Shown one piece after another: positions 4,107-19,056 of a stretch of DNA of 32,744 nt (within the stretch, counting starts at the first letter, position 1; each line of letters opens with the position of its first letter). The position numbers and the translations under genes are program-made. The stretch comes from a virus. The notes beneath the pieces were generated by a model. That model did no database searches and was not told the DNA's origin. It worked only from the letters and a program-made list of their open reading frames with translations. Location of the stretch: positions 1 to 32,744 of the IMG/VR virus record IMGVR_UViG_3300017764_000042, one strand, 5' to 3'.

Positions 4107-4144
4107 TTTGGAATTGTCATTTTAATTTCGTATATTGTATAAAC
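4107..4144 (+). promoter_or_regulatory. box-less promoter (TTTG-N20-TATATTG) before tRNA-Gly
   Basis: TTTG at 4107-4110, exactly 20 bp, then TATATTG at 4131-4137, matching the Bacteroidetes primary sigma -33/-7 arrangement. It lies in the gap between tRNA-Ala and the tRNA-Gly-like gene, so transcription would start a few bases before 4151 and read through tRNA-Glu into the methyltransferase operon. It lacks the tandem TTAACA boxes of the other promoter class. Confidence 0.6.
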
Positions 4145-5398: not shown

Positions 5399-5708
5399 GT
5401 GGCAACCTTGGCATAAAGGTCATCAATGGTTAATCGACCAAAGATTAAATCAAGGAAAAAATGTTTGTATAGCAATTCGTGATGTGGAGCCAGATGAAAA
5501 GAATCCATACACACCAACACAAGTATACAGAAGAATATCAACACAATTATCAGACTTAATTAACGAGGGTAGAGTTAAGATTATAGTGATACCTGATATT
5601 GAATCAGTCAACTACGGAAGGTCGGTTGGGTACGATGTTATAGAACACGAACCACCATCAGACATCAAAAGTATATCTGCAAGCAAAATACGAGAACAAG
5701 GCTGTTAA
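5373..5708 (+). CDS. small HxGH nucleotidylyltransferase, NadM-like
   Basis: 111 residues. GRWQPWHKGH (8-17) is the nucleotidylyltransferase HxGH motif; IRDVEPDEKNPYTP resembles the NMN adenylyltransferase (archaeal-type NadM) loop; ISASKIRE (101-108) is the ISxTxIR ATP-binding signature. It starts 26 bp inside the APS-kinase-like gene, so the pair is co-translated. Possible roles are NMN adenylyltransferase (NAD synthesis or repair) or an AMP-transferring partner of the kinase. At 111 residues it is short for NadM (about 170) and lacks much of the region between the strands, so function is uncertain though the fold is clear. Confidence 0.75.
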   Translation: MKYSLFIGRWQPWHKGHQWLIDQRLNQGKNVCIAIRDVEPDEKNPYTPTQVYRRISTQLSDLINEGRVKIIVIPDIESVNYGRSVGYDVIEHEPPSDIKSISASKIREQGC

Positions 5709-5724
5709 TAACTTGTTAATAACT

Positions 5725-5788
5725 TTAACAAAAATTTAACATAAAAGGTTTGGCAATCCCAACTTAATTCACTATCTTTACTATGTAA
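5725..5788 (+). promoter_or_regulatory. TTAACA-box promoter, copy 1
   Basis: TTAACA at 5725-5730 and 5736-5741 (11-bp period), 7 bp, TTTG at 5749-5752, 20 bp, TATCTTT at 5773-5779, then ACTATGTAA. The distance from the first box to the -7 element is 48 bp, the same as in the three other copies. The -33/-7 elements fit Bacteroidetes promoters. The ATG at 5791 lies only about 12 bp after the -7 element, so the leader would be a few bases at most. Confidence 0.75.
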
Positions 5789-5790
5789 TA

Positions 5791-6018
5791 ATGATTAATA
5801 GTAATGATATGATAAAAGTAAACGATAAGATAACTTGGAAAGATAAGTATGGTAGAATACTGCCAGGAATAGTAACAAGTCTTAATAAGTACGATGATGT
5901 GCCTGAACTCGACTTGAATGGGTGTATCTGTATAAGTGCTCCTACCTTCTTACCTTATAGTAAAGATTGGAACAATGCAATAATTGACCCTTTCCAAGTA
6001 CTAACAATTGAAAAATAA
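5791..6018 (+). CDS. small SH3-like hypothetical protein
   Basis: 75 residues, beta-rich. IKVNDKITWKDKYGRILPGIVTSL resembles the opening strands of a small SH3/KOW-like barrel, but this is a fold guess only. It is the first gene after the first TTAACA-box promoter. In-frame ATGs at 5804 region (not all in frame) make the exact start uncertain, but 5791 sits at the expected distance from the promoter. No function is recognised. Confidence 0.6.
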   Translation: MINSNDMIKVNDKITWKDKYGRILPGIVTSLNKYDDVPELDLNGCICISAPTFLPYSKDWNNAIIDPFQVLTIEK

Positions 6019-6031
6019 CTAATTATAAAAA

Positions 6032-6172
6032 GTGGGCAAAGAAAAGAAAGATATCAAATTAAAGCAAGTAACGCTTACTTTTCAAGAGTGGAGAGATTCA
6101 CTCCGAGTTCCAATGCCGCATAAAAGCAAGAAACACTATACCCGTAAAGAAAAACATAAAGGCAAAATTTAA
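6032..6172 (+). CDS. 46-aa basic mini-protein (GTG start)
   Basis: A GTG at 6032 opens a 46-codon frame ending TAA at 6170-6172. The peptide (MGKEKKDIKLKQVTLTFQEW, then RDSLRVPMPHKSKKHYTRKE...) is highly basic with Lys, Arg and His clusters, like small nucleic-acid-binding proteins of phages. It fills the gap between 6018 and the next promoter, and its stop overlaps the first TTAACA box. Function unknown. Confidence 0.5.
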   Translation: MGKEKKDIKLKQVTLTFQEWRDSLRVPMPHKSKKHYTRKEKHKGKI

Positions 6173-6232
6173 CAATTTGTTAACATTAAAAATTTGGCAA
6201 TTAGATAAAAATGTCTTATCTTTACTATGTAA
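6169..6232 (+). promoter_or_regulatory. TTAACA-box promoter, copy 2
   Basis: TTAACA at 6169-6174 and 6180-6185, 7 bp, TTTG at 6193-6196, 20 bp, TATCTTT at 6217-6223, followed by ACTATGTAA. Geometry is identical to copy 1. It drives the VWA gene, whose ATG (6242) lies about 18 bp after the -7 element. The first box overlaps the stop codon of the mini-protein before it. Confidence 0.75.
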
Positions 6233-6241
6233 GATTAAAAA

Positions 6242-8377
6242 ATGAGAAATAGTATGTACAAATCAAATCTAAATTATTCTTCCTTCTGGCTCGATAGGTC
6301 TATTTGGGAAGATGAAGACAACCAACCAACTAAGGTTGAAAAGAAATCAAATGACTTGATGAAACTGATGTCATATAAAAAGTCTATCAGTAACTTCGTC
6401 AATATTGTTACAGGCCAACCTATCCCTGTTACCTTTAATGGTAGAGGTGAAGATAGTTACACCGATGGTCAACAAGTTGTTATATCAGCTAAGATGAACG
6501 ACAAAGAGTTTGACCCTGTTGTTGGTCTAGCACTTCACGAAGGTTCTCATGTTAAACTTACAAACTTCACGACACTTAAACAATTAATAGACAACAATGT
6601 TTTCCCTTCATCAATGATAGACTTTATGAATTCTTTTAAAACTGATGAGGGTTCAGAGTTTCAATATACAACAGAGTGGTATGATAACAAAGACCAAATC
6701 ATACACAACCTAAAACAACTTCTTAACTATGTAGAGGACAGAAGAATTGACAATTACATATACAAGTCAGCGCCAGGTTATAGAGGTTACTACGAGGCAA
6801 TGTACAACAAGTACTTCCACTCTAATGTAGTGGACAAAGGTCTTAAGTCTTCAGAACATAGAACTGAGACTTGGTCATCTTATATGTTTAGATTGATTAA
6901 CATCACTAACAAGAATAGAGACCTCAACGCATTAAAGGGATTAAGAAAGATTTGGAATCTTCTTGACCTTAAAAATATTTCAAGACTTAGAACTACCGAT
7001 GACGCCCTTGAGCTGGCAGGTGAGATTTATATGGTTATCCAAAACAATATTAATGAAGATATGGACCAAATGCCAGAACCACAAAAAGGTGGTGATGGTC
7101 AAGGTCAAGATGATACCGATGGTAAATCTGATATGTCTTCAGATGACAATCCAACTGCAGACGCTCCACCGATGGAAGGTAAGGGTAAAGGTAATGGTAA
7201 AGACTCTAAAAGTGATGATGGTGATGATGGTAATTCTACTGATGACAAAGGTTCTCAATCAACTGGCCTTGGTAACAAGAATGGGGCAGGTGGTAACTTT
7301 AGTCCACTAAACGACAGACAGAAAAAGATGTTAGAGAACGCTATTAAGAAACAAGAAAAGTTCTTGGATGGTGATATTCAAAAGACAACAATCAGTAAGT
7401 CTGATAAAAAGAAATTAGATACTCTTGACAAAGCAGATATCGAAACTGAGGTTACAGGCAAAGGACTTCACCAAGGATATTACAGAGGCGCTTCTCAAGG
7501 TGTTCAAACTTATGTAATCAAAAATGTTACTAAGAATCTGATTGACTCAAATATTGTTCCACACTTAGGTACATGGAGAGTTGATTCAAACGATAAGGCG
7601 ATTAGAAAAGGTATTACACTTGGAACTATCTTAGGTAAAAAACTTAAGACAAGAAACGAAGAAAGAATTAACAACACTCCAAGAATGAAGAGTGGTAAAT
7701 TAAATGGTAGAATGTTACACGAGATTGGATTCGGTAACTTTCAAATCTTTGACCAAATCAATATCAATACGGCGACACCATGTATACTACACATTTCGAT
7801 TGACGCAAGTTCTTCGATGAGTGGTGACAAGTGGTACAACACTCAAACGGCGGCAGTCGCAATCGCTAAGGCGGCATCAATGACCGATAATATGAATGTG
7901 GTGATTTCTTATAGAGGTATCTATTACAATAGTGGTCAAGGATGTCAACCTCTAATGATGATTGCATATGATTCAAGAAAAGATAAGTTCCAAAAGATAC
8001 AAAACTTATTCAAGTTTATTTCACCAAGTGGAACTACTCCTGAAGGTCTTTGTTTCGAGGCAATCTTAAAAGAATTAGTTAAGACTAAGAATGGTACAGA
8101 TAGTTACCTAATCAACTTCTCTGATGGTTGGCCTGGCTTTGATAACAAGGAAATTAGTTATGGTGGTCAATACGCAGTCGACCATACGGCAGACCAAGTT
8201 AAGAAAGTTAGACAAGCTGGCGTTGGAGTTCTATCCTACTTTATTTCTGATGGATATTTTGGAAGTAGCAAGAGTTACTTCGAGCAGATGTATGGGAAGG
8301 ACTCAGAGTTTATCAATGTTGATAACATGACTCAGTTAGCTAAAACATTAAATAAAAAGTTTGAGGTTAAAATTTAA
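6242..8377 (+). CDS. CobT-like HExxH plus VWA-domain protein
   Basis: 711 residues in three parts. The N-terminal part has ALHEGSHVKL, an HExxH motif (H99-H103), and LNYVEDRRID (161-170), an ED-R motif like the one shared by CobT and VWA-linked metallopeptidase domains. A low-complexity acidic linker (about 275-352, rich in Asp, Gly, Lys, Ser) follows. The C-terminal VWA domain has a complete MIDAS: D521-x-S523-x-S525, Thr at 598/599 and D628 in NFSDGW. CobT/VWA proteins pair with MoxR/CobS AAA+ ATPases, as here with 8471-9727. Likely a substrate adaptor for a remodelling or chaperone complex in the host cytoplasm. It has its own TTAACA-box promoter. Confidence 0.85.
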   Translation: MRNSMYKSNLNYSSFWLDRSIWEDEDNQPTKVEKKSNDLMKLMSYKKSISNFVNIVTGQPIPVTFNGRGEDSYTDGQQVVISAKMNDKEFDPVVGLALHEGSHVKLTNFTTLKQLIDNNVFPSSMIDFMNSFKTDEGSEFQYTTEWYDNKDQIIHNLKQLLNYVEDRRIDNYIYKSAPGYRGYYEAMYNKYFHSNVVDKGLKSSEHRTETWSSYMFRLINITNKNRDLNALKGLRKIWNLLDLKNISRLRTTDDALELAGEIYMVIQNNINEDMDQMPEPQKGGDGQGQDDTDGKSDMSSDDNPTADAPPMEGKGKGNGKDSKSDDGDDGNSTDDKGSQSTGLGNKNGAGGNFSPLNDRQKKMLENAIKKQEKFLDGDIQKTTISKSDKKKLDTLDKADIETEVTGKGLHQGYYRGASQGVQTYVIKNVTKNLIDSNIVPHLGTWRVDSNDKAIRKGITLGTILGKKLKTRNEERINNTPRMKSGKLNGRMLHEIGFGNFQIFDQININTATPCILHISIDASSSMSGDKWYNTQTAAVAIAKAASMTDNMNVVISYRGIYYNSGQGCQPLMMIAYDSRKDKFQKIQNLFKFISPSGTTPEGLCFEAILKELVKTKNGTDSYLINFSDGWPGFDNKEISYGGQYAVDHTADQVKKVRQAGVGVLSYFISDGYFGSSKSYFEQMYGKDSEFINVDNMTQLAKTLNKKFEVKI

Positions 8378-8437
8378 CAATTTCTTAACATTAAAAATTT
8401 GGAGTTGTGAACCTAATTCACTATCTTTATAGAGTAA
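8374..8437 (+). promoter_or_regulatory. TTAACA-box promoter, copy 3
   Basis: TTAACA at 8374-8379 (overlapping the VWA gene's stop) and 8385-8390, 7 bp, TTTG at 8398-8401, 20 bp, TATCTTT at 8422-8428. The bases after the -7 element differ (ATAGAGTAA instead of ACTATGTAA). It drives the MoxR-type ATPase, with a leader of about 35 bases before the ATG at 8471, the longest of the four. Confidence 0.75.
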
Positions 8438-8470
8438 TAATTAAAAGAGTAAAAATTAAATAGTAAATAT

Positions 8471-9727
8471 ATGAAAGCACAAAAATCAGTATTCGGAAAA
8501 GTTGTCCAAGTTGAGGGCAAGTTTCTATTTGAGGACTCGGCAGGAAAACAATTCTTGATTCCTGAGTTCAATGAAGAAGGTACTAACCTTTTCAAAAGAG
8601 TTAGACAATCTTGGAAAAGACCTGACAAGTATGGATTTAAAGTCAGAGTTAGTGGTAGATTGTCAGATGGTAAGATAGACTTTACAAGAGTTCCAGCAGC
8701 TAAGGTAGAACAAAACCTTGAGCCAGTTGGTAACTTCAACGCACCTAATGGTGGTCTTGTAGCACTTGCATATACTCCACAAGTTGTTCAGCCAGCTAGT
8801 TCTGAAATGACCTCTGATGTTCTTAGTTTCATTCACGAAAAGTCTGAAGGTTTAAAACCTAAAATGTTATTCATGAAGTCTCTTAAGTGGAAGTATTTAG
8901 TGAGAAACATTCTTAGAGGTAAAAATATTATGATGACCGGCCCCGCTGGTTGTGGTAAAACTATGGCGGCTAAAGCGGCGGCTAATTCACTTGAAGGTTA
9001 CAACACCTTTATTATTAACTTAGGTTCTACTCAAGACCCAAGAACAACTCTAATTGGTAACACTCAGTTTGACTCTAAAAAAGGTACGGTCTTTAATACT
9101 TCACCTTTTGTGAAAGCGATTCAAAGTCCCAATACTGTTGTCATTCTTGATGAGTTGACAAGAGCTCACCCTGAGGCTCACAACATTCTGATGACGGTTC
9201 TTGACCAAGGTCAGAGATACCTAAGATTAGATGAGGCGGCTGACGCTCCTGTTGTTAAAGTTGCAGAGGGTGTTTCCTTCATCGCATCGGCAAACATCGG
9301 TAATGAGTACACCGCTACAAGAGCTCTCGATAGAGCGATGTTAGACAGATTTACTGTTATCGAAATGGACACTTTAACTAAGGACGAAGAGTCTGAACTA
9401 CTTCAAATGATGTATCCTTCAGTTGATAAAGACATCATTGGTAATGTCGCTGAGATTACTTCGATGACAAGAGCTGACTTAATGTCTGAAAATCCAAAAC
9501 TAAGTAACGCTTTGTCGACAAGAACGGCAGTTGAGATTGGTTCTCTACTTTATGATGGTTTCAATTTAGGTGAAGCCGCTGAGATTACAATCTATCCAAT
9601 GTTTGACCAAAGTGGTGGTGCTCAATCTGAAAGAGTTTATATGAAACAATTCATCCAAAAGTTCTTAGGTGAAGTTCCAGAGAATGAGGATTTATTCAAC
9701 ACCGAAGAGGTAGAACAACCTTACTAA
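8471..9727 (+). CDS. MoxR/CobS-type AAA+ ATPase
   Basis: 418 residues. An N-terminal 110-residue beta-rich region precedes the ATPase core: Walker A GPAGCGKT (157-164), Walker B VVILDE (223-228), sensor 1 SANIGN (273-278), and the arginine-finger segment LDRAMLDRF (286-294). The AAA_5/MoxR type is usually encoded next to a VWA partner and forms a hexamer that remodels that partner's client. Relatives in T4-like cyanophages are annotated cobS, but cobalt chelation is not implied here because no other cobalamin gene is seen. The pair with 6242-8377 and the same promoter type strongly suggest a joint function. Confidence 0.88.
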   Translation: MKAQKSVFGKVVQVEGKFLFEDSAGKQFLIPEFNEEGTNLFKRVRQSWKRPDKYGFKVRVSGRLSDGKIDFTRVPAAKVEQNLEPVGNFNAPNGGLVALAYTPQVVQPASSEMTSDVLSFIHEKSEGLKPKMLFMKSLKWKYLVRNILRGKNIMMTGPAGCGKTMAAKAAANSLEGYNTFIINLGSTQDPRTTLIGNTQFDSKKGTVFNTSPFVKAIQSPNTVVILDELTRAHPEAHNILMTVLDQGQRYLRLDEAADAPVVKVAEGVSFIASANIGNEYTATRALDRAMLDRFTVIEMDTLTKDEESELLQMMYPSVDKDIIGNVAEITSMTRADLMSENPKLSNALSTRTAVEIGSLLYDGFNLGEAAEITIYPMFDQSGGAQSERVYMKQFIQKFLGEVPENEDLFNTEEVEQPY

Positions 9728-9730
9728 GAT

Positions 9731-10168
9731 ATGGGATACAATAAGTTCAGATGGTGGACTAATGGTAGGAAGAAAAAACTATCAGTTAAGAACCCCTTAA
9801 TAGAAAGAATTAACAATGGTGATTTCGATTACTCTCATTATTACTCAGAGGAGAAGGCTGCAAGAAAGCAGTCTTCTGACCTCTACAATGAGATAATGAG
9901 TAAGTGTCCTGAGGGTGGTGACTATTGGGGTTATGAATATGAGGCAAGACAAAAGACTTACCTAAAGAATGTTAGAGCGAACAAGTTGGCAGAAGAAGGA
10001 CATAAAGATGAAATTAGAATATTAGATAGTCTTAAAAAAGAATTAAAGAAAGAGTTTGGGTTTTGTCTTTGGGACAAAGCTATGAATAGTAGATTGATGG
10101 ACGCCGAACAACTATATGAGTTTTACCTAATAGAAAGAATGAAAGGACAAAGTTTGTTAATTAAATAA
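9731..10168 (+). CDS. hypothetical protein downstream of MoxR ATPase
   Basis: 145 residues, charged and largely helical (SEEKAARKQSSDLYNEIMSK; LKKELKKEFGFCLWDKAMNS). It starts 3 bp after the ATPase stop, so it is in the same transcript and may be a third component or a substrate of the VWA/MoxR system; that is inference from position only. No motif is recognised. Confidence 0.65.
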   Translation: MGYNKFRWWTNGRKKKLSVKNPLIERINNGDFDYSHYYSEEKAARKQSSDLYNEIMSKCPEGGDYWGYEYEARQKTYLKNVRANKLAEEGHKDEIRILDSLKKELKKEFGFCLWDKAMNSRLMDAEQLYEFYLIERMKGQSLLIK

Positions 10169-10190
10169 ATTTTTTGTATATTTAAAGATA
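10153..10190 (+). promoter_or_regulatory. box-less promoter (TTTG-N20-TATATTT), near-leaderless
   Basis: TTTG at 10153-10156, 20 bp, TATATTTA at 10177-10184. The first base of the next ATG is 10190, only 6 bp after the -7 element, about where transcription should begin, so the mRNA for 10190-10459 may be leaderless or nearly so. Confidence 0.55.
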
Positions 10191-10459
10191 TGAATCTAAA
10201 ATACGACCCCAACAATCCGTTAACAGATAAACAACTTGATGAGATAGCTGCATATGACTTCGATATGTTCTTGGAGTATTTAGATTCTAAAACAGAATAT
10301 CTCAAAACAAAAACAAGACCTCTAAACACACACGAATTAAAAAAGATAAACTATCTTGACGCAGCCAGTAGAGGTGAAGAGATTTCTCAAAAAAGATGGG
10401 AAGAGATTAAGAAGTTAGGAAAACAAAACGAACAATCAATATGGGACAAGAAAAAATGA
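10190..10459 (+). CDS. hypothetical protein, 89 aa
   Basis: Soluble, charged, predicted helical (NPLTDKQLDEIAAYDFDMFL...; RGEEISQKRWEEIKKL). No motif is recognised. It is the first gene of a transcript that continues with the winged-helix-like protein; its TGA overlaps the ATG at 10456. Confidence 0.6.
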   Translation: MNLKYDPNNPLTDKQLDEIAAYDFDMFLEYLDSKTEYLKTKTRPLNTHELKKINYLDAASRGEEISQKRWEEIKKLGKQNEQSIWDKKK

Positions 10460-10794
10460 GGTGGAGTAAATCAGAACTTAAAGAGTTGACAGAAACAATA
10501 GTATCAGAGCTTAAAGAAGGTCCGTTTGATATTTCTGATTGGGATGTATTCGCAGAGTATGTCGAACACAATTTAAAAACATCACAACAAGATGACTTCT
10601 TGTCTGAAGTTGTTGTAAACGCATTCAAATCATATCAGAGATACGAAACTGATATGGCGATATCTAATCTAATAGATAAAGGATTAGTTCGTATGTTAGT
10701 TAACCAAGATGGGGAACTTGTATATGAGGCTACTGAAAAAGGTAGAGATTTAGGAACATTAATAATAAAAATGAAAAATGGCAAAATTAAATGA
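10456..10794 (+). CDS. winged-helix-like protein
   Basis: 112 residues from the ATG at 10456 (ATGA overlap with the upstream stop; an in-frame ATG at 10441 is an alternative). The C-terminal half, AISNLIDKGLVRMLVNQDGE followed by LVYEATEKGRDL, has the layout of a winged helix: a helix ending in GL, a beta hairpin around an NQDGE turn, then a TEKGR helix start. Such proteins bind DNA or act as protein-contact domains. It could be a phage regulator, but no partner or site can be assigned from sequence alone. Confidence 0.5.
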   Translation: MRWSKSELKELTETIVSELKEGPFDISDWDVFAEYVEHNLKTSQQDDFLSEVVVNAFKSYQRYETDMAISNLIDKGLVRMLVNQDGELVYEATEKGRDLGTLIIKMKNGKIK

Positions 10795-10996
10795 ATTCCC
10801 AAGGAGCGCTAGTTACTGGCAAGACCAAGGGGCAAATTATGGGTATGTAGTGATACCTGCAGGAAAGGTAGATATCGGTGAAGGACACTTCGTGAATTTC
10901 TTCCACACTATATTTGAAGACGCTCATTCGGAAAAACCAAATGGGGAATATAAACTTGTTGATGAACAAGAGTTAAGTGAAATGTTAAATTATTAA
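10778..10996 (+). CDS. hypothetical protein, 72 aa
   Basis: Begins 17 bp inside the preceding gene. Sequence GYVVIPAGKVDIGEGHFVNF is beta-rich; the tail is acidic and helical (LVDEQELSEMLNY). No family is recognised. Part of the 10190-11721 overlapping operon. Confidence 0.55.
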   Translation: MAKLNEFPRSASYWQDQGANYGYVVIPAGKVDIGEGHFVNFFHTIFEDAHSEKPNGEYKLVDEQELSEMLNY

Positions 10997-11005
10997 AATT
11001 AAATT

Positions 11006-11206
11006 ATGAAGTATTATATCGCAAAAGTAAAAGTACACCATACCGATGATAAGGGTAGGGTAAAAAAGTTAACTGAACAATATGTTGTTAACGCAGTGTC
11101 GGTAACTGACGCTGAAACAAAAGTCACTAAAGACTTTGAGAACTCAGGTATTGAGTTTGAAGTAGGTTCTGTAATAGAGACGAAAATTATAAAAGTAATT
11201 AGTTAA
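11006..11206 (+). CDS. DUF4494-like small protein
   Basis: 66 residues: YYIAKVKVHHTDDKGRVKKL, then TEQYVVNAVSVTDAETKVTK. The order of a first beta strand, a TDDKGRVKKLTEQYVV hairpin and an SVTDAETKV helix resembles DUF4494, small proteins common in Bacteroidetes genomes and their mobile elements. Function of the family is unknown to me. If the match holds it supports a Bacteroidetes host. Confidence 0.6.
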   Translation: MKYYIAKVKVHHTDDKGRVKKLTEQYVVNAVSVTDAETKVTKDFENSGIEFEVGSVIETKIIKVIS

Positions 11207-11207
11207 T

Positions 11208-11447
11208 ATGGTATTTGAAAAAGGTGATAATGTTATTGTCAAGGTGAATGGTCACTTTAGAGTGGGCAAGGTTACAGGTAGAACAAAGCTGAAGAGAGGG
11301 TTGATTTATGAAGTACTACTTGAGAATGGTAAAAAAGTTGACAGATGTTCTGTTAACAAGGAGTTATCAACTGCACACATTCATAAAGGACTTACTAAGA
11401 ATTTAAAAAATAAATTATATGGACAAAGTACAGACGAGGAAGTTTAA
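11208..11447 (+). CDS. small SH3/Tudor-like hypothetical protein
   Basis: 79 residues. FEKGDNVIVKVNGHFRVGKV, then TYEVLLENGKKVDRCS-type strands look like a small SH3-like barrel (KOW/Tudor layout), with a basic C-terminal extension. It starts 1 bp after the preceding stop, and its last 29 bp overlap the next gene. Fold assignment is tentative. Confidence 0.55.
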   Translation: MVFEKGDNVIVKVNGHFRVGKVTGRTKLKRGLIYEVLLENGKKVDRCSVNKELSTAHIHKGLTKNLKNKLYGQSTDEEV

Positions 11448-11721
11448 GTCTTTTCAACGAAAGGTTAGAAAAAGATATCCTAACGCAAAGATACAGATTA
11501 ACTCTGATGGGTTGTTTTATATATCAAGTGGAATTGGTACTGTGGTGGGTGAGGAGTTATATATCCCACCACAACAAAAGGTATTTGACGCGTGGTATTG
11601 GGCAAGTAGGTCTTGTCAAATAGAGCAAAACTTTAATAGAACTCATCCCATGAAATACGATATGGTTATTGATGAGAAAAAATTTGATAGGGTTTCAAGA
11701 AGAAATCGTAAGAGAAAGTAA
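11419..11721 (+). CDS. basic hypothetical protein, 100 aa
   Basis: Strongly basic at both ends (KVQTRKFKSFQRKVRKRYPN; RVSRRNRKRK) with a beta-rich, Trp/Tyr-containing middle (VFDAWYWASRS). Nucleic-acid binding is possible from charge but no motif supports it. Overlaps the upstream gene by 29 bp. Confidence 0.55.
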   Translation: MDKVQTRKFKSFQRKVRKRYPNAKIQINSDGLFYISSGIGTVVGEELYIPPQQKVFDAWYWASRSCQIEQNFNRTHPMKYDMVIDEKKFDRVSRRNRKRK

Positions 11722-11773
11722 CTTTATTAGTGTTGAGAAAACTATTTATTGGTATAACCAAAATTAGTTACTT

Positions 11774-12076
11774 ATGAAAAAGTATAATAAATCCAAAGTG
11801 AGACATGGTAATGTTAACCACTCATTTGGAGTTCCTAAAGATAGACAGGAACGAAACGAAAAAAGATACGGAAATCTTTACAACTCTTTAGATTTTAGAA
11901 TCCACGAAGCATTCAGTTTTTCAGAACACCCACATAGCGCTACGAAAGTAGGATATGTACAGATTGGTGGAAAAGAATTTGAAGTTACAATGGCAGAATT
12001 AAATAAGTTAGGAATGACTTGTTTTGAGGCCGTAGATTTAGCAAAGAAAAAATATAGATTAGGTTTAGGAAATTAG
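11774..12076 (+). CDS. hypothetical protein, 100 aa
   Basis: Basic N-terminus (MKKYNKSKVRHGNVNHSFGV), then GYVQIGGKEFEVTMAELNKL and a helical C-terminus. Unrecognised. It has a 52-bp leader containing TATTTATTGGTATAACC, a partial match to the ATATTTATA motif. The next gene starts at the last base of its stop codon. Confidence 0.6.
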   Translation: MKKYNKSKVRHGNVNHSFGVPKDRQERNEKRYGNLYNSLDFRIHEAFSFSEHPHSATKVGYVQIGGKEFEVTMAELNKLGMTCFEAVDLAKKKYRLGLGN

Positions 12077-12507
12077 TGAACGATAAGGATTTAGACATAG
12101 AAGAAGTCTATAACGATAGTCTCATGAGACATCGACTCAAGGACAAGTATTACTTGGAGTTTGCTTCAAGTGATATCTTTGATATGTTAGCTGATGATAC
12201 ACTTGGTGATAAGTCAGATTTAGAAACCTATGTATCTTCAGTTCGTGATGTTATTGTCGCAAAAAAAGAACCTTACTTTACAATTACCAAAAACAAGATT
12301 CATTCACTCATTGATTCAGAACAGGCGCCTAATACAAACTATGTTGTTAACATGGGCGCTAAACTAAACCAGATGAAGGACAGATTCACCAGCGAATTTG
12401 TACAAACTATAATTGATATCTTTTTAGATTTTGTAAAAGCAGATAATACAATTATCAATAAAGAAGGTTTAGAATATTTGAATAAACTTTGGAAAGATAA
12501 ACCATGA
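12076..12507 (+). CDS. acidic helical hypothetical protein (GTG start)
   Basis: 143 residues beginning with a GTG that shares its first base with the TAG of the previous gene. Acidic and helical throughout, with regular Asp/Leu patterns. No catalytic motif. It overlaps the next ATG by 4 bp, so the pair is coupled. Confidence 0.6.
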   Translation: MNDKDLDIEEVYNDSLMRHRLKDKYYLEFASSDIFDMLADDTLGDKSDLETYVSSVRDVIVAKKEPYFTITKNKIHSLIDSEQAPNTNYVVNMGAKLNQMKDRFTSEFVQTIIDIFLDFVKADNTIINKEGLEYLNKLWKDKP

Positions 12508-12884
12508 GTCATACTTATAGTAAAGGAGACATCATGGATTGGGACAGAGACGAGTATAATTACTTTATGAGTTTAGATGATATGACTAAGGTCTACTATC
12601 TACACGATTGGATATATGGTGAGTTTGAAGAAGAACATTTAGAAGATGATTCTGATTTAGATGAACCAATGTTTGATTATATTCCTGAAGAGAAAAAAAC
12701 TACAAAAGTACAAGTGATTCTTGATGTCGATTCTCTTTGGATAACTTGTTCTAATCGCAGACTAATTGAAGACACAATAAAAATGTTTGTTATGGATGGT
12801 TTACTATTACAACTTGAAGAGTCCTTTGAAGACACAAGACACTATCGTGTCATAAAACATGGGTCACCTATCTCATTAAACTGA
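12504..12884 (+). CDS. acidic hypothetical protein, 126 aa
   Basis: The N-terminal half is very acidic (FEEEHLEDDSDLDEPMFDYI), the C-terminal half alternates strands and a helix (VQVILDVDSLWITC; RRLIEDTIKMFVMDGLL). Coupled to the preceding gene by a 4-bp overlap. An Hsp20 gene follows after a 105-bp gap. Unrecognised. Confidence 0.6.
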   Translation: MSHTYSKGDIMDWDRDEYNYFMSLDDMTKVYYLHDWIYGEFEEEHLEDDSDLDEPMFDYIPEEKKTTKVQVILDVDSLWITCSNRRLIEDTIKMFVMDGLLLQLEESFEDTRHYRVIKHGSPISLN

Positions 12885-12907
12885 CACCATGTCATACTTA
12901 ACTGACA
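12882..12907 (+). promoter_or_regulatory. TGACA inverted and direct repeats upstream of hsp20
   Basis: TGACA (12882-12886), 3 bp, TGTCA (12890-12894) form a perfect 5-bp inverted repeat, and a third TGACA lies at 12903-12907. All sit at the start of the 105-bp gap before the Hsp20 gene. This looks like an operator for a dimeric regulator, but the arms are short and could be chance. The remainder of the gap is A-rich with no clear -33/-7 pair at standard spacing. Confidence 0.3.
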
Positions 12908-12989
12908 AAACTTCTTAAAATACATAGTGGTATAGATTTGGTACTATAATAATCAAAGAAACTAATGTTTAATTAAAAAAAAGGTTATT

Positions 12990-13340
12990 ATGAGAAATTT
13001 ATTTTATACAGATTTTGATACTGTATTTGATTCATACCTAAATTGGGACATTGAAACAAAAGCAAATTCAATACCAACATCTTGGATTAAAGATGATATT
13101 TTAAAAATTGAGTTTGAAGTGCCAGGATTATCAAACAAGGATGTTGACATTAAGGTGGAAGATAGATTCCTTCTTATCAAAGCAGAAAAAGAGAATCGTA
13201 AGCTTGAAAGAAAGTACAAGATTCACGAGTCTTTTGATTTAGGGTCTACATCAGCTATCTGTAAAGATGGTCTACTTAAAATTGAGATTCCAAAGTATGA
13301 AGATAGAAAAGCAAAAAGTATTACAGTAAAAGTTAAATAA
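12990..13340 (+). CDS. Hsp20/alpha-crystallin small heat-shock protein
   Basis: 116 residues. The alpha-crystallin domain covers about residues 30-116: ILKIEFEVPGLSNKDVDIKV, then VEDRFLLIKAEKE, a basic ERKYKIHESF strand, and the conserved tail DGLLKIEIPK. Small heat-shock proteins form oligomers that hold unfolding proteins; they are common in T4-like phages of aquatic bacteria, probably aiding virion protein folding. The N-terminal arm is short, and the C-terminal IxI-type anchor is replaced by a SITVKVK end. A possible operator (TGACA repeats) lies upstream. Confidence 0.9.
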   Translation: MRNLFYTDFDTVFDSYLNWDIETKANSIPTSWIKDDILKIEFEVPGLSNKDVDIKVEDRFLLIKAEKENRKLERKYKIHESFDLGSTSAICKDGLLKIEIPKYEDRKAKSITVKVK

Positions 13341-13345
13341 GTTAA

Positions 13346-13549
13346 ATGTCAGCATACTCGTGGTTAAGATACAAGAAGTTACAACACAATGATACATTAT
13401 ACTTAATCATAAGACGAATCCATGAAAATAGAAGACCAATTATCTCTACATGGAAAGAACATCTTAACTGCGACTTAGTACTCAAAGGTAGTGATGGTTT
13501 TTACTATTTTTTACAAGAAGTTACGGACATAGAGTACGAAGAGTTATAG
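13346..13549 (+). CDS. hypothetical protein, 67 aa
   Basis: Starts 5 bp after the Hsp20 stop. Mixed sequence with a basic, aromatic N-terminal half (SAYSWLRYKKLQ; IIRRIHENRRP) and a beta-like tail (GFYYFLQEVTDIEYEEL). Unrecognised. It is the last gene before an intrinsic terminator. Confidence 0.55.
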   Translation: MSAYSWLRYKKLQHNDTLYLIIRRIHENRRPIISTWKEHLNCDLVLKGSDGFYYFLQEVTDIEYEEL

Positions 13550-13556
13550 CAAAAAT

Positions 13557-13620
13557 TTAACATAAATTTAACATAGGGGGCTTGGAAAAGTCCCCTTTTT
13601 TTGTTATCTTTACTATGTAA
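13557..13620 (+). promoter_or_regulatory. TTAACA-box promoter, copy 4
   Basis: TTAACA at 13557-13562 and 13568-13573, 7 bp, CTTG at 13581-13584, 20 bp, TATCTTT at 13605-13611, then ACTATGTAA. Geometry is identical to the other three copies. The 7-bp gap and the CTTG are built from a terminator stem-loop (see the next entry). It drives the HAD phosphatase at 13632. Confidence 0.72.
13576..13602 (+). terminator. intrinsic terminator embedded in a promoter
   Basis: Stem GGGGGCTT (13576-13583) with AAGTCCCC (13588-13595), eight pairs with one G-T, loop GGAA, followed by seven T residues (13596-13602). It would end the transcript that includes hsp20 and 13346-13549. It lies between the TTAACA boxes and the -7 element of copy 4, so the -33 CTTG falls across the stem end and loop. 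Confidence 0.8.
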
Positions 13621-13631
13621 AGTTTAATAGT

Positions 13632-14078
13632 ATGAAGAATATAGTAATTTTTGATTTGGATGGTACTCTCGCTCTTATCGATGATAGGAGAAAGATTTCT
13701 ACCAAACCAAATGGTAAGATGGATTGGGACAAGTTCTTTGACCCTAAAAACATTAGTTTGGATAAACCAAATATACCTGTAATTAAAATGGCACAAAGTC
13801 TCGCAAGTGATGGTTTTCAGATTGTGATATTTAGTGGTAGAAGTAAAAGTACTATATCGGCTACTAAGTTTTGGTTAAGTAAAAACAAAGTTCCATTTCA
13901 TAGATTACTTATGAGACCAATAAAAGATTTCACTCCCGATGATGTCCTTAAACAAAATTGGTTAGACGATATTGGGAAAGACAATGTTCTATGTACTTTT
14001 GACGATAGACAAAAGGTAGTAGATATGTGGCGAGCTAATGGTATCTCGTGTTTTCAGGTAGCACCTGGTAATTTTTAA
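13632..14078 (+). CDS. HAD phosphatase, polynucleotide-kinase 3'-phosphatase type
   Basis: 148 residues. FDLDGTLA (7-14) is the HAD nucleophile motif (D8, D10); FSGRS (67-71) is motif II; the LMRPIKDFTPDDVLK segment (93-107) and FDDRQKVVDMWRANG (123-137) match the 3'-phosphatase domain of T4 polynucleotide kinase, which removes 3'-phosphates from RNA or DNA ends before ligation. The 5'-kinase domain of the T4 enzyme is absent, so this is a stand-alone phosphatase. A role in repair of tRNA or nicked nucleic acid is likely but not shown. It is under a TTAACA-box promoter. Confidence 0.85.
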   Translation: MKNIVIFDLDGTLALIDDRRKISTKPNGKMDWDKFFDPKNISLDKPNIPVIKMAQSLASDGFQIVIFSGRSKSTISATKFWLSKNKVPFHRLLMRPIKDFTPDDVLKQNWLDDIGKDNVLCTFDDRQKVVDMWRANGISCFQVAPGNF

Positions 14079-18071: not shown

Positions 18072-18353
18072 ATGATTACAACAATTATTATACTTTCTTT
18101 AACAACTTTAGTTTTTGGATTCACTACTTGGAACTTACTAAGAAAGAATGAAGCTACTGAAGATGTTGTAGAAGAACAAGAACAAACAATTTCAAATTTT
18201 GCAAAGTTAGTAGATGACTCAATGAAAAAAATGAAAGACTTAGATACAAAAGGAGCATTTGAATCTGACGATGAAACGGGTTTCGTTTTTACACAATTAT
18301 ATAAAATTATAGAAAAGCTGGAAAATTATTATGCCAAGGAAACGCAAGAATAA
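18072..18353 (+). CDS. membrane-anchored small acidic protein
   Basis: 93 residues. An N-terminal hydrophobic helix (MITTIIILSLTTLVFGFTTW) is followed by an acidic helical region. The layout, a short anchor then NLLRKNEATED, resembles a small protein found beside the sigma-like gene in other T4-like aquatic phages, as far as I recall. It starts 1 bp after the HD gene and overlaps the sigma-like gene by 23 bp. Confidence 0.6.
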   Translation: MITTIIILSLTTLVFGFTTWNLLRKNEATEDVVEEQEQTISNFAKLVDDSMKKMKDLDTKGAFESDDETGFVFTQLYKIIEKLENYYAKETQE

Positions 18354-19056
18354 AAGATATTTCACTAAGGTTACTGAGATAGCTATTAATGCTTATAATG
18401 GAATAGATGATTATAAGTTAAAGAATAAAATCTATAATAGATTCATTCACTATCCATTTGACAAGTTAGCTGAGAATGTTATTCACACATACAAAACATA
18501 TTACTTTGATGTACCATATGTTGATGTCAAGGCAAATGTAGTGGCGTTTCTAAATCAAAAGATTCATAAATTTAATGGAGCAAATGGTAGAGCATTTTCT
18601 TATTTTACGGTAGTAGCTAGAAACTACTTGTTTAATGAGAACAATCAGAACTACCAAAGGATGAAACAAAAAACTGATTTAAAATATATTGATACCACAA
18701 GGAATATAGGTAATGAAGTATATGAAAAAGAAATGAAAGAATCAGTAGCAGACTTTTTTGATTTCTATGTTAGATATATTGATGCGAATCTTTATAAACT
18801 ATTCGCTAAAGAAAGAGAACAAAAAATAGCTGACTCAATTACAGAACTATTTAGAACAAGACATGACTTATATTCTTACAACAAAAAGGCACTCTACATA
18901 CTTATTAGAGAGAGGACAGGTGTTCAAACTCAATATATAACTAAGGTTATTGGTAAACTTAAATTGTTATATAAAGAGTTGTATTTGGACTTTGTCACTA
19001 AAGGATACTTAGAAGTAAATCATAGAATCGAGGAATTCAATGACCAAAGACGATGA
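18331..19056 (+). CDS. gp55-like late sigma factor (putative)
   Basis: 241 residues. Residues about 62-115 look like a degenerate sigma region 2: YVDVKANVVAFLNQKIHKFN then GRAFSYFTVVARNYLFNENN, comparable to the helix [20 protein letters not shown] and what follows in T4 gp55. A basic N-terminus (MPRKRKNKRYF) precedes it. Unlike T4 gp55, about 80 more residues follow, including TGVQTQYITKVIGKLKLLYK, which could be a helix-turn-helix like sigma region 4. gp55 directs host RNA polymerase to late promoters with a sliding-clamp partner. It sits just upstream of the baseplate genes. Confidence 0.6.
   Translation: MPRKRKNKRYFTKVTEIAINAYNGIDDYKLKNKIYNRFIHYPFDKLAENVIHTYKTYYFDVPYVDVKANVVAFLNQKIHKFNGANGRAFSYFTVVARNYLFNENNQNYQRMKQKTDLKYIDTTRNIGNEVYEKEMKESVADFFDFYVRYIDANLYKLFAKEREQKIADSITELFRTRHDLYSYNKKALYILIRERTGVQTQYITKVIGKLKLLYKELYLDFVTKGYLEVNHRIEEFNDQRR

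Follow-up and report, generated by a model that had tools for sequence, protein, structure and literature searches.

The window, by which we mean the whole 32,744-nucleotide stretch of viral DNA that was analysed, contains four promoters on the + strand, at positions 5725, 6169, 8374 and 13557, each of which follows the layout TTAACA-N5-TTAACA-N7-yTTGG-N19-TATCTTTA with exact spacing. Specifically, in all four the period of the boxes is 11 bp, the gap between the second box and yTTG is 7 bp, and the distance from the first box to TATCTTTA is 48 bp. The positions and spacing given for these sites in the initial annotation were exact, and the presence of -33 and -7 elements at all four agrees with its description of the core promoter as one of host type. 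The sites, the genes behind them and the associated elements are as follows.

5704..5724, + strand: two weaker repeats, TTAATA-N5-TTAATA, with an 11-bp period, directly upstream of site 1
5725..5741, + strand: tandem boxes of site 1, TTAACA-AAAAT-TTAACA, putative Pho boxes (matrix score 72.0)
5749..5780, + strand: core of site 1, with -33 TTTGG at 5749-5753 and -7 TATCTTTA at 5773-5780, followed by CTATGTAATAA
5791..6018, + strand: 75-aa small protein behind site 1
6169..6185, + strand: tandem boxes of site 2, putative Pho boxes, 5' of the VWA gene
6193..6224, + strand: core of site 2, with -33 TTTGG and -7 TATCTTTA
6242..8377, + strand: 711-aa VWA-like protein in which a MIDAS-like DASSS is visible
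8374..8390, + strand: tandem boxes of site 3, putative Pho boxes, 5' of the MoxR gene
8398..8429, + strand: core of site 3, with -33 TTTGG and -7 TATCTTTA
8471..9727, + strand: 418-aa MoxR-type AAA ATPase (Pfam AAA_5, 8.7e-18)
13557..13573, + strand: tandem boxes of site 4, putative Pho boxes, 5' of the PNK-type phosphatase gene
13575..13602, + strand: terminator-like hairpin with a 9-bp stem, a GGAA loop and a T-run (-14.9 kcal/mol, z -3.4)
13581..13612, + strand: core of site 4, with -33 CTTGG at 13581-13585 and -7 TATCTTTA at 13605-13612
13632..14078, + strand: PNK-type 3'-phosphatase (HAD_PNKP; PF25109, 6.1e-32)

The 75-aa protein has no family match in Pfam or PHROGs, while for the VWA-like protein a Pfam search returned no match and the PHROG matches were weak. 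The first box of site 2 contains the TAA stop codon of the preceding small ORF, and that of site 3 contains the TAA stop codon of the VWA gene (8375-8377).

Within the 32.7 kb of the window, five box pairs were observed vs 0.03 in shuffles; the composite motif, with up to three mismatches allowed, was found four times, each time with no mismatch, vs 0.04 in shuffles; and a 68-column weight matrix returned four matches vs none in a Markov shuffle. The fifth box pair (5703-5719, - strand) lacks a core promoter and arises from the two TTAATA repeats, which are possibly extra boxes for site 1; TTAATAACTTGTTAATAA stretches like that at 5704-5724 also precede sites in L006 and L019, and L014 and L036 have a variant of it there. 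The idea that one promoter gave rise to all four sites by local duplication was rejected: their spacers and gene contexts differ, and the sites recur in unrelated phages. In possessing two or more tandem 11-nt direct repeat units, the window sites conform to the published definition of the Pho box as two such units (PMC4415409).

The window phage contains promoter-like sequences of other kinds. Box-less host-type promoters, TTTGG-N19-TATATT, stand at positions 4107, 14318 and 16557 (shuffle expectation 0.06) and are a second promoter class in this phage. WATATTTATA-like sequences are located approximately 30 bp before gene starts at 1877, 3710 and 30973, in a number not above chance for the window, and in a relative (G015) the octamer TATTTATA occurs before 22 genes, with 30 copies in all. 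Because TATTTATA precedes so many G015 genes, the TATTTATA/WATATTTATA-like motif may be a late promoter.

Beyond the window, a pattern scan of public viral contigs yielded at least 119 stretches with the 56-bp architecture; the regulon-like promoter class put forward in the initial annotation is real. In the same scan reversed boxes gave no matches, a half-turn shift (five extra bases between boxes and -33) likewise gave none, and a full-turn shift (11 extra bases) gave eight, several of which are three-box arrays. The logo of 151 distinct sites, in which the letters of the boxes are fixed by the search pattern itself, reads aaaaT-TTAACA-aWWWY-TTAACA-TTaaRR-yTTGG-N19-TATCTTTA-cN3-GTAA. A scan for the core only, blind to the boxes, separated two discrete promoter classes within the same phage genomes: cores of class 1 mostly have 12/12 box matches, while those of class 2 are box-less and read TTTGG-N19-TATATTTG. 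Box matches per core are bimodal, being mostly 9-12 or at most 7 of 12.

Matrix scans of the whole records of nine phages beyond the window returned 32, 13, 12, 11, 9, 20, 13, 10 and 5 sites, with no matches in shuffles of the five phage records so tested; the original view of a regulon of four genes is therefore too narrow, as other phages carry 5 to 32 sites. Nearly all phage sites lie on one strand at the end of the upstream gene, whose TAA stop is often inside a box. The module is also present in phages with GC contents of 25% and 49%, which have little besides capsid in common with other boxed phages. Two related isolate genomes, Mel-JY01 and immuto, contain no sites by matrix scan, the terminal 20 kb of Tenacibaculum phage pT24 yielded no boxes with a core, and a blastn search with the consensus for a cultured boxed phage produced weak matches only. 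The recorded host of Mel-JY01 (PP395634.1) is Microcystis, but in its conserved genes it matches the present group of Bacteroidota-type phages, and the host label may be worth a check. The hosts of the box-carrying phages themselves are probably Bacteroidota, judging by the core, which is of host type, and by a relative that is a Flavobacterium phage.

Of the phage genes, VWA and MoxR are among those that most frequently have boxes (six records each), followed by a family of ~195 aa (L166:1991-2602 and homologues, with a weak LPD29 match), boxed in 6/7 of the genomes that have it, and by UvdE, boxed in three. Core phage genes are rare directly behind boxes (3/97 vs 297/1780 other genes; Fisher p 8e-5), and in a 266-kb phage the sites crowd into a stretch without core genes. 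Boxed targets include a PNK phosphatase, a cyclic-phosphate receiver domain, a metallophosphoesterase and HAD, that is, enzymes of nucleic acids and phosphate esters, and no obvious phosphate genes; since most boxed genes are unknowns, a phosphate theme among them is only a hint. One boxed gene of phage G005 (L187:18770-19276) codes for a (p)ppGpp hydrolase-like protein with an HD_4 domain, possibly another link to starvation.

These distributions bear upon the proposal that the boxes are bound by an activator of the phage's own, with a role like that of MotA, and that they mark a middle-gene programme which runs without reference to host phosphate sensing. In its favor, the phage-wide regulon is located in accessory regions, not structural ones, and is absent from the two related isolates, and gene families present in 7/9 boxed and 0/2 box-less phages do exist. 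Included among these are a 72-aa HTH-like protein (L164:3496-3714, equivalent to G015 63496-63714), a candidate regulator, and the ~195-aa family, itself boxed in six phages. Nevertheless, the lineages of 25% and 49% GC share boxes and almost no other genes, and no OmpR/PhoB-type DNA-binding domain (PF00486) is encoded in the 17 phage records searched. Since no gene is shared across the lineages and an OmpR-type domain is absent, a phage-encoded regulator becomes less likely; with host Pho promoters using the identical site and register, as described below, we regard it as very unlikely. The winged-helix protein at 10456 (ORF 10441-10794), suggested at the outset as the regulator, was rejected: its family occurs in only 5/9 boxed phages and its Pfam match is sub-threshold. 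A late sigma (gp55-like) identity for 18331-19056 is unsupported by Pfam, PHROGs and PDB.

In bacteria the module is scarce. The composite has seven matches in 257 Gb of bacterial genomes. With a looser -7 element there are three matches in 395 Bacteroidia genomes, and single boxes in 60 genomes displayed no preferred spacing; the boxes are not a general host promoter element. That host promoters in general lack boxes in these two surveys also weighs against the boxes being an UP element, contacted by the alpha subunit of RNA polymerase at strong constitutive early promoters, a reading to which their AT-richness, 11-bp period and location directly upstream of -33 would lend themselves. Moreover, the boxes are not graded, as the bimodal cores illustrate, and they are sequence-specific, including the C, and present before host phosphate genes, leaving an UP element extremely improbable.

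One of the seven genome matches (L129/L180) is a triple array, TTAACATTGTC-TTAACATTGTC-TTAACA, which precedes a phosphate-transport operon with a Na/Pi cotransporter-PhoU protein (PF02690, PF01895), 1.7 kb from pstB, and phosphate loci were examined for this reason. Eleven pst regions from nine Bacteroidia genomes contain six exact TTAACA pairs at period 11, compared with 0-1 at periods 9, 10, 12 and 13. The host pairs in pst regions precede PstS, an OprP-type porin (PF07396 in 2/3 genomes), or phosphate-transport operon and Na/Pi-transporter genes. Across the 11 pst regions and 11 pstS loci, the offsets from pair to TAnnTTTG are 37 (seven times), 48 (six times) and 59 (ten times), where 0.067 is expected per offset. 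Ten promoters of host Pho loci have repeats that form a ladder, located 59, 48, 37 and 26 bp ahead of TAnnTTTG, vs one among 51 control loci from elsewhere in hosts (164 kb in total, 30 of the loci having been picked because they contain a box pair); the ladder derives mainly from one order and a class-wide sample. The phage boxes, at 48 and 37, are in the host register, and TTTGG sits where the 26-bp repeat would be. Thus, the sequence of the phage repeats is that of Bacteroidota Pho-regulon promoters, and their position relative to the core is that of the host promoters as well. The earlier suggestion of a site for a tandem-binding regulator upstream of -33 accords with this identity of sequence and register, but the view that the control system is undescribed is not supported, as the boxes match Pho boxes of Bacteroidota hosts (pst loci; PMC9603813).

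Consistent with this match are data from Riemerella anatipestifer, in which the most conserved letters of the PhoP motif obtained by DAP-seq are TTTAACA, PhoP shifts the moxR promoter in EMSA, and moxR and batA (VWA) are lower in a phoP mutant (PMC9603813). According to the same study, PhoP did not need phosphorylation to bind DNA, and its regulon is broad (PMC9603813); phosphate may therefore not be the only signal. The PhoP motif is similar to that of ArcA from E. coli, and redox and Bat genes are among the members of the PhoP regulon (PMC9603813), which could be taken to favor a host response regulator of the OmpR family other than the phosphate regulator as the protein that uses TTAACA repeats and is exploited by the phages; related winged-helix regulators can have similar sites. 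As the ladder stands before pstS and porin in the genomes examined, we consider this unlikely.

Site 4 possesses a further feature. Its hairpin (13575-13602) lies between the boxes and the -7 element and overlaps the -33 CTTGG (13581-13585), and no such hairpin occurs between box 2 and -7 in sites 1-3 of the window. A hairpin between box 2 and -7 that covers -33 and is followed by a T-run is present in about one phage site in seven; stems of at least nine pairs were found in 21/149 non-redundant sites vs 1.4 in shuffles (maximum 5 in 50 shuffles). The nested hairpin looks like a predicted intrinsic terminator of the upstream gene, placed inside the promoter of the next.

Taken together, these comparisons make it quite probable that the TTAACA-N5-TTAACA pairs of the phages are Pho boxes for host PhoB/PhoP, which would most likely activate accessory phage genes. 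Because the boxes match those of host phosphate-starvation promoters at a fixed distance, viruses that carry them have probably given PhoB, the phosphate sensor of the host, a part in controlling the infection programme. As to mechanism, the phage places two repeats at host positions 48 and 37, with a strong host-type -33 replacing the last repeat; PhoB in tandem, arranged head to tail, would occupy both repeats on one helix face, beside RNA polymerase, and when the host phosphate regulon is on would raise transcription of accessory genes (VWA, MoxR, PNK phosphatase and others). What we infer from the DNA sequence is that PhoB binds the phage sites, that it activates and does not repress, and that the effect depends on phosphate. 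The boxes may raise expression rather than strictly gate it, since the phage core already has a good -33, and with two repeats and this -33 the phage sites may be partly active without PhoB. In its fullest form, the reading we favor on balance is that diverse, mostly T4-like Bacteroidota phages gate a set of infection genes, and not just borrowed metabolic genes, through host PhoBR by means of a fixed two-repeat module; that this set includes counterparts of the host PhoP-activated MoxR-VWA genes; and that a subset nests an intrinsic terminator within the 56 bp.

Should this be true, a widespread group of Bacteroidota viruses reads host phosphate status and adjusts its programme, as cyanophages do, with a much clearer DNA code than cyanophages. 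It would also provide a usable definition of the Bacteroidota Pho box (TTAACA repeats at 59/48/37/26 from the -7 element), allow phosphate-responsive phage genes to be listed straight from sequence, and permit experiments in laboratory Flavobacterium on how infection is tied to nutrient state. Nothing specific was found in the literature on Bacteroidota phage promoters or Pho boxes; the hijacking of PhoB is already known from cyanophages, and the Bacteroidota phage version would be a new variation on that theme.

Several known systems invite comparison. The phage promoters resemble the PhoB/PhoP promoters of Bacteroidota (pst, porin, Riemerella regulon) in their 11-bp direct repeats and identical -7 offsets, and MoxR and VWA are among the targets of both the Riemerella PhoP regulon and the phage boxes; unlike the host promoters, which have 3-4 repeats and no clear -33, those of the phages have two repeats and a good -33, TTTGG. 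In T4 middle promoters, the position of the -35 element is taken by a MotA box, and the phage itself encodes the activator (MotA/AsiA). Host polymerase and an extra upstream site serving a subset of non-structural genes are common to both systems, but the phage promoters described here keep their -33 (TTTGG or CTTGG at each of the four sites, and also present in the logo) and use a host site. Closest are the cyanophages (S-PM2d in Synechococcus WH7803, and pstS of P-SSM2), in which host PhoBR controls phage genes via Pho boxes; the use of host PhoB by Synechococcus cyanophage genes was established through binding in EMSA, and predicted Pho boxes proved unreliable guides to PhoB binding (PMC10976474). 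In both cases sites of host PhoB type also stand at non-phosphate genes (in the cyanophage, DNA polymerase and others). The cyanophage differs in its cyanobacterial host and in its boxes, which are loose, variably placed and present in 7/14 induced genes, whereas the sites described here are near-identical, held at a fixed distance, as numerous as 32 per phage, and recurrent in unrelated lineages.
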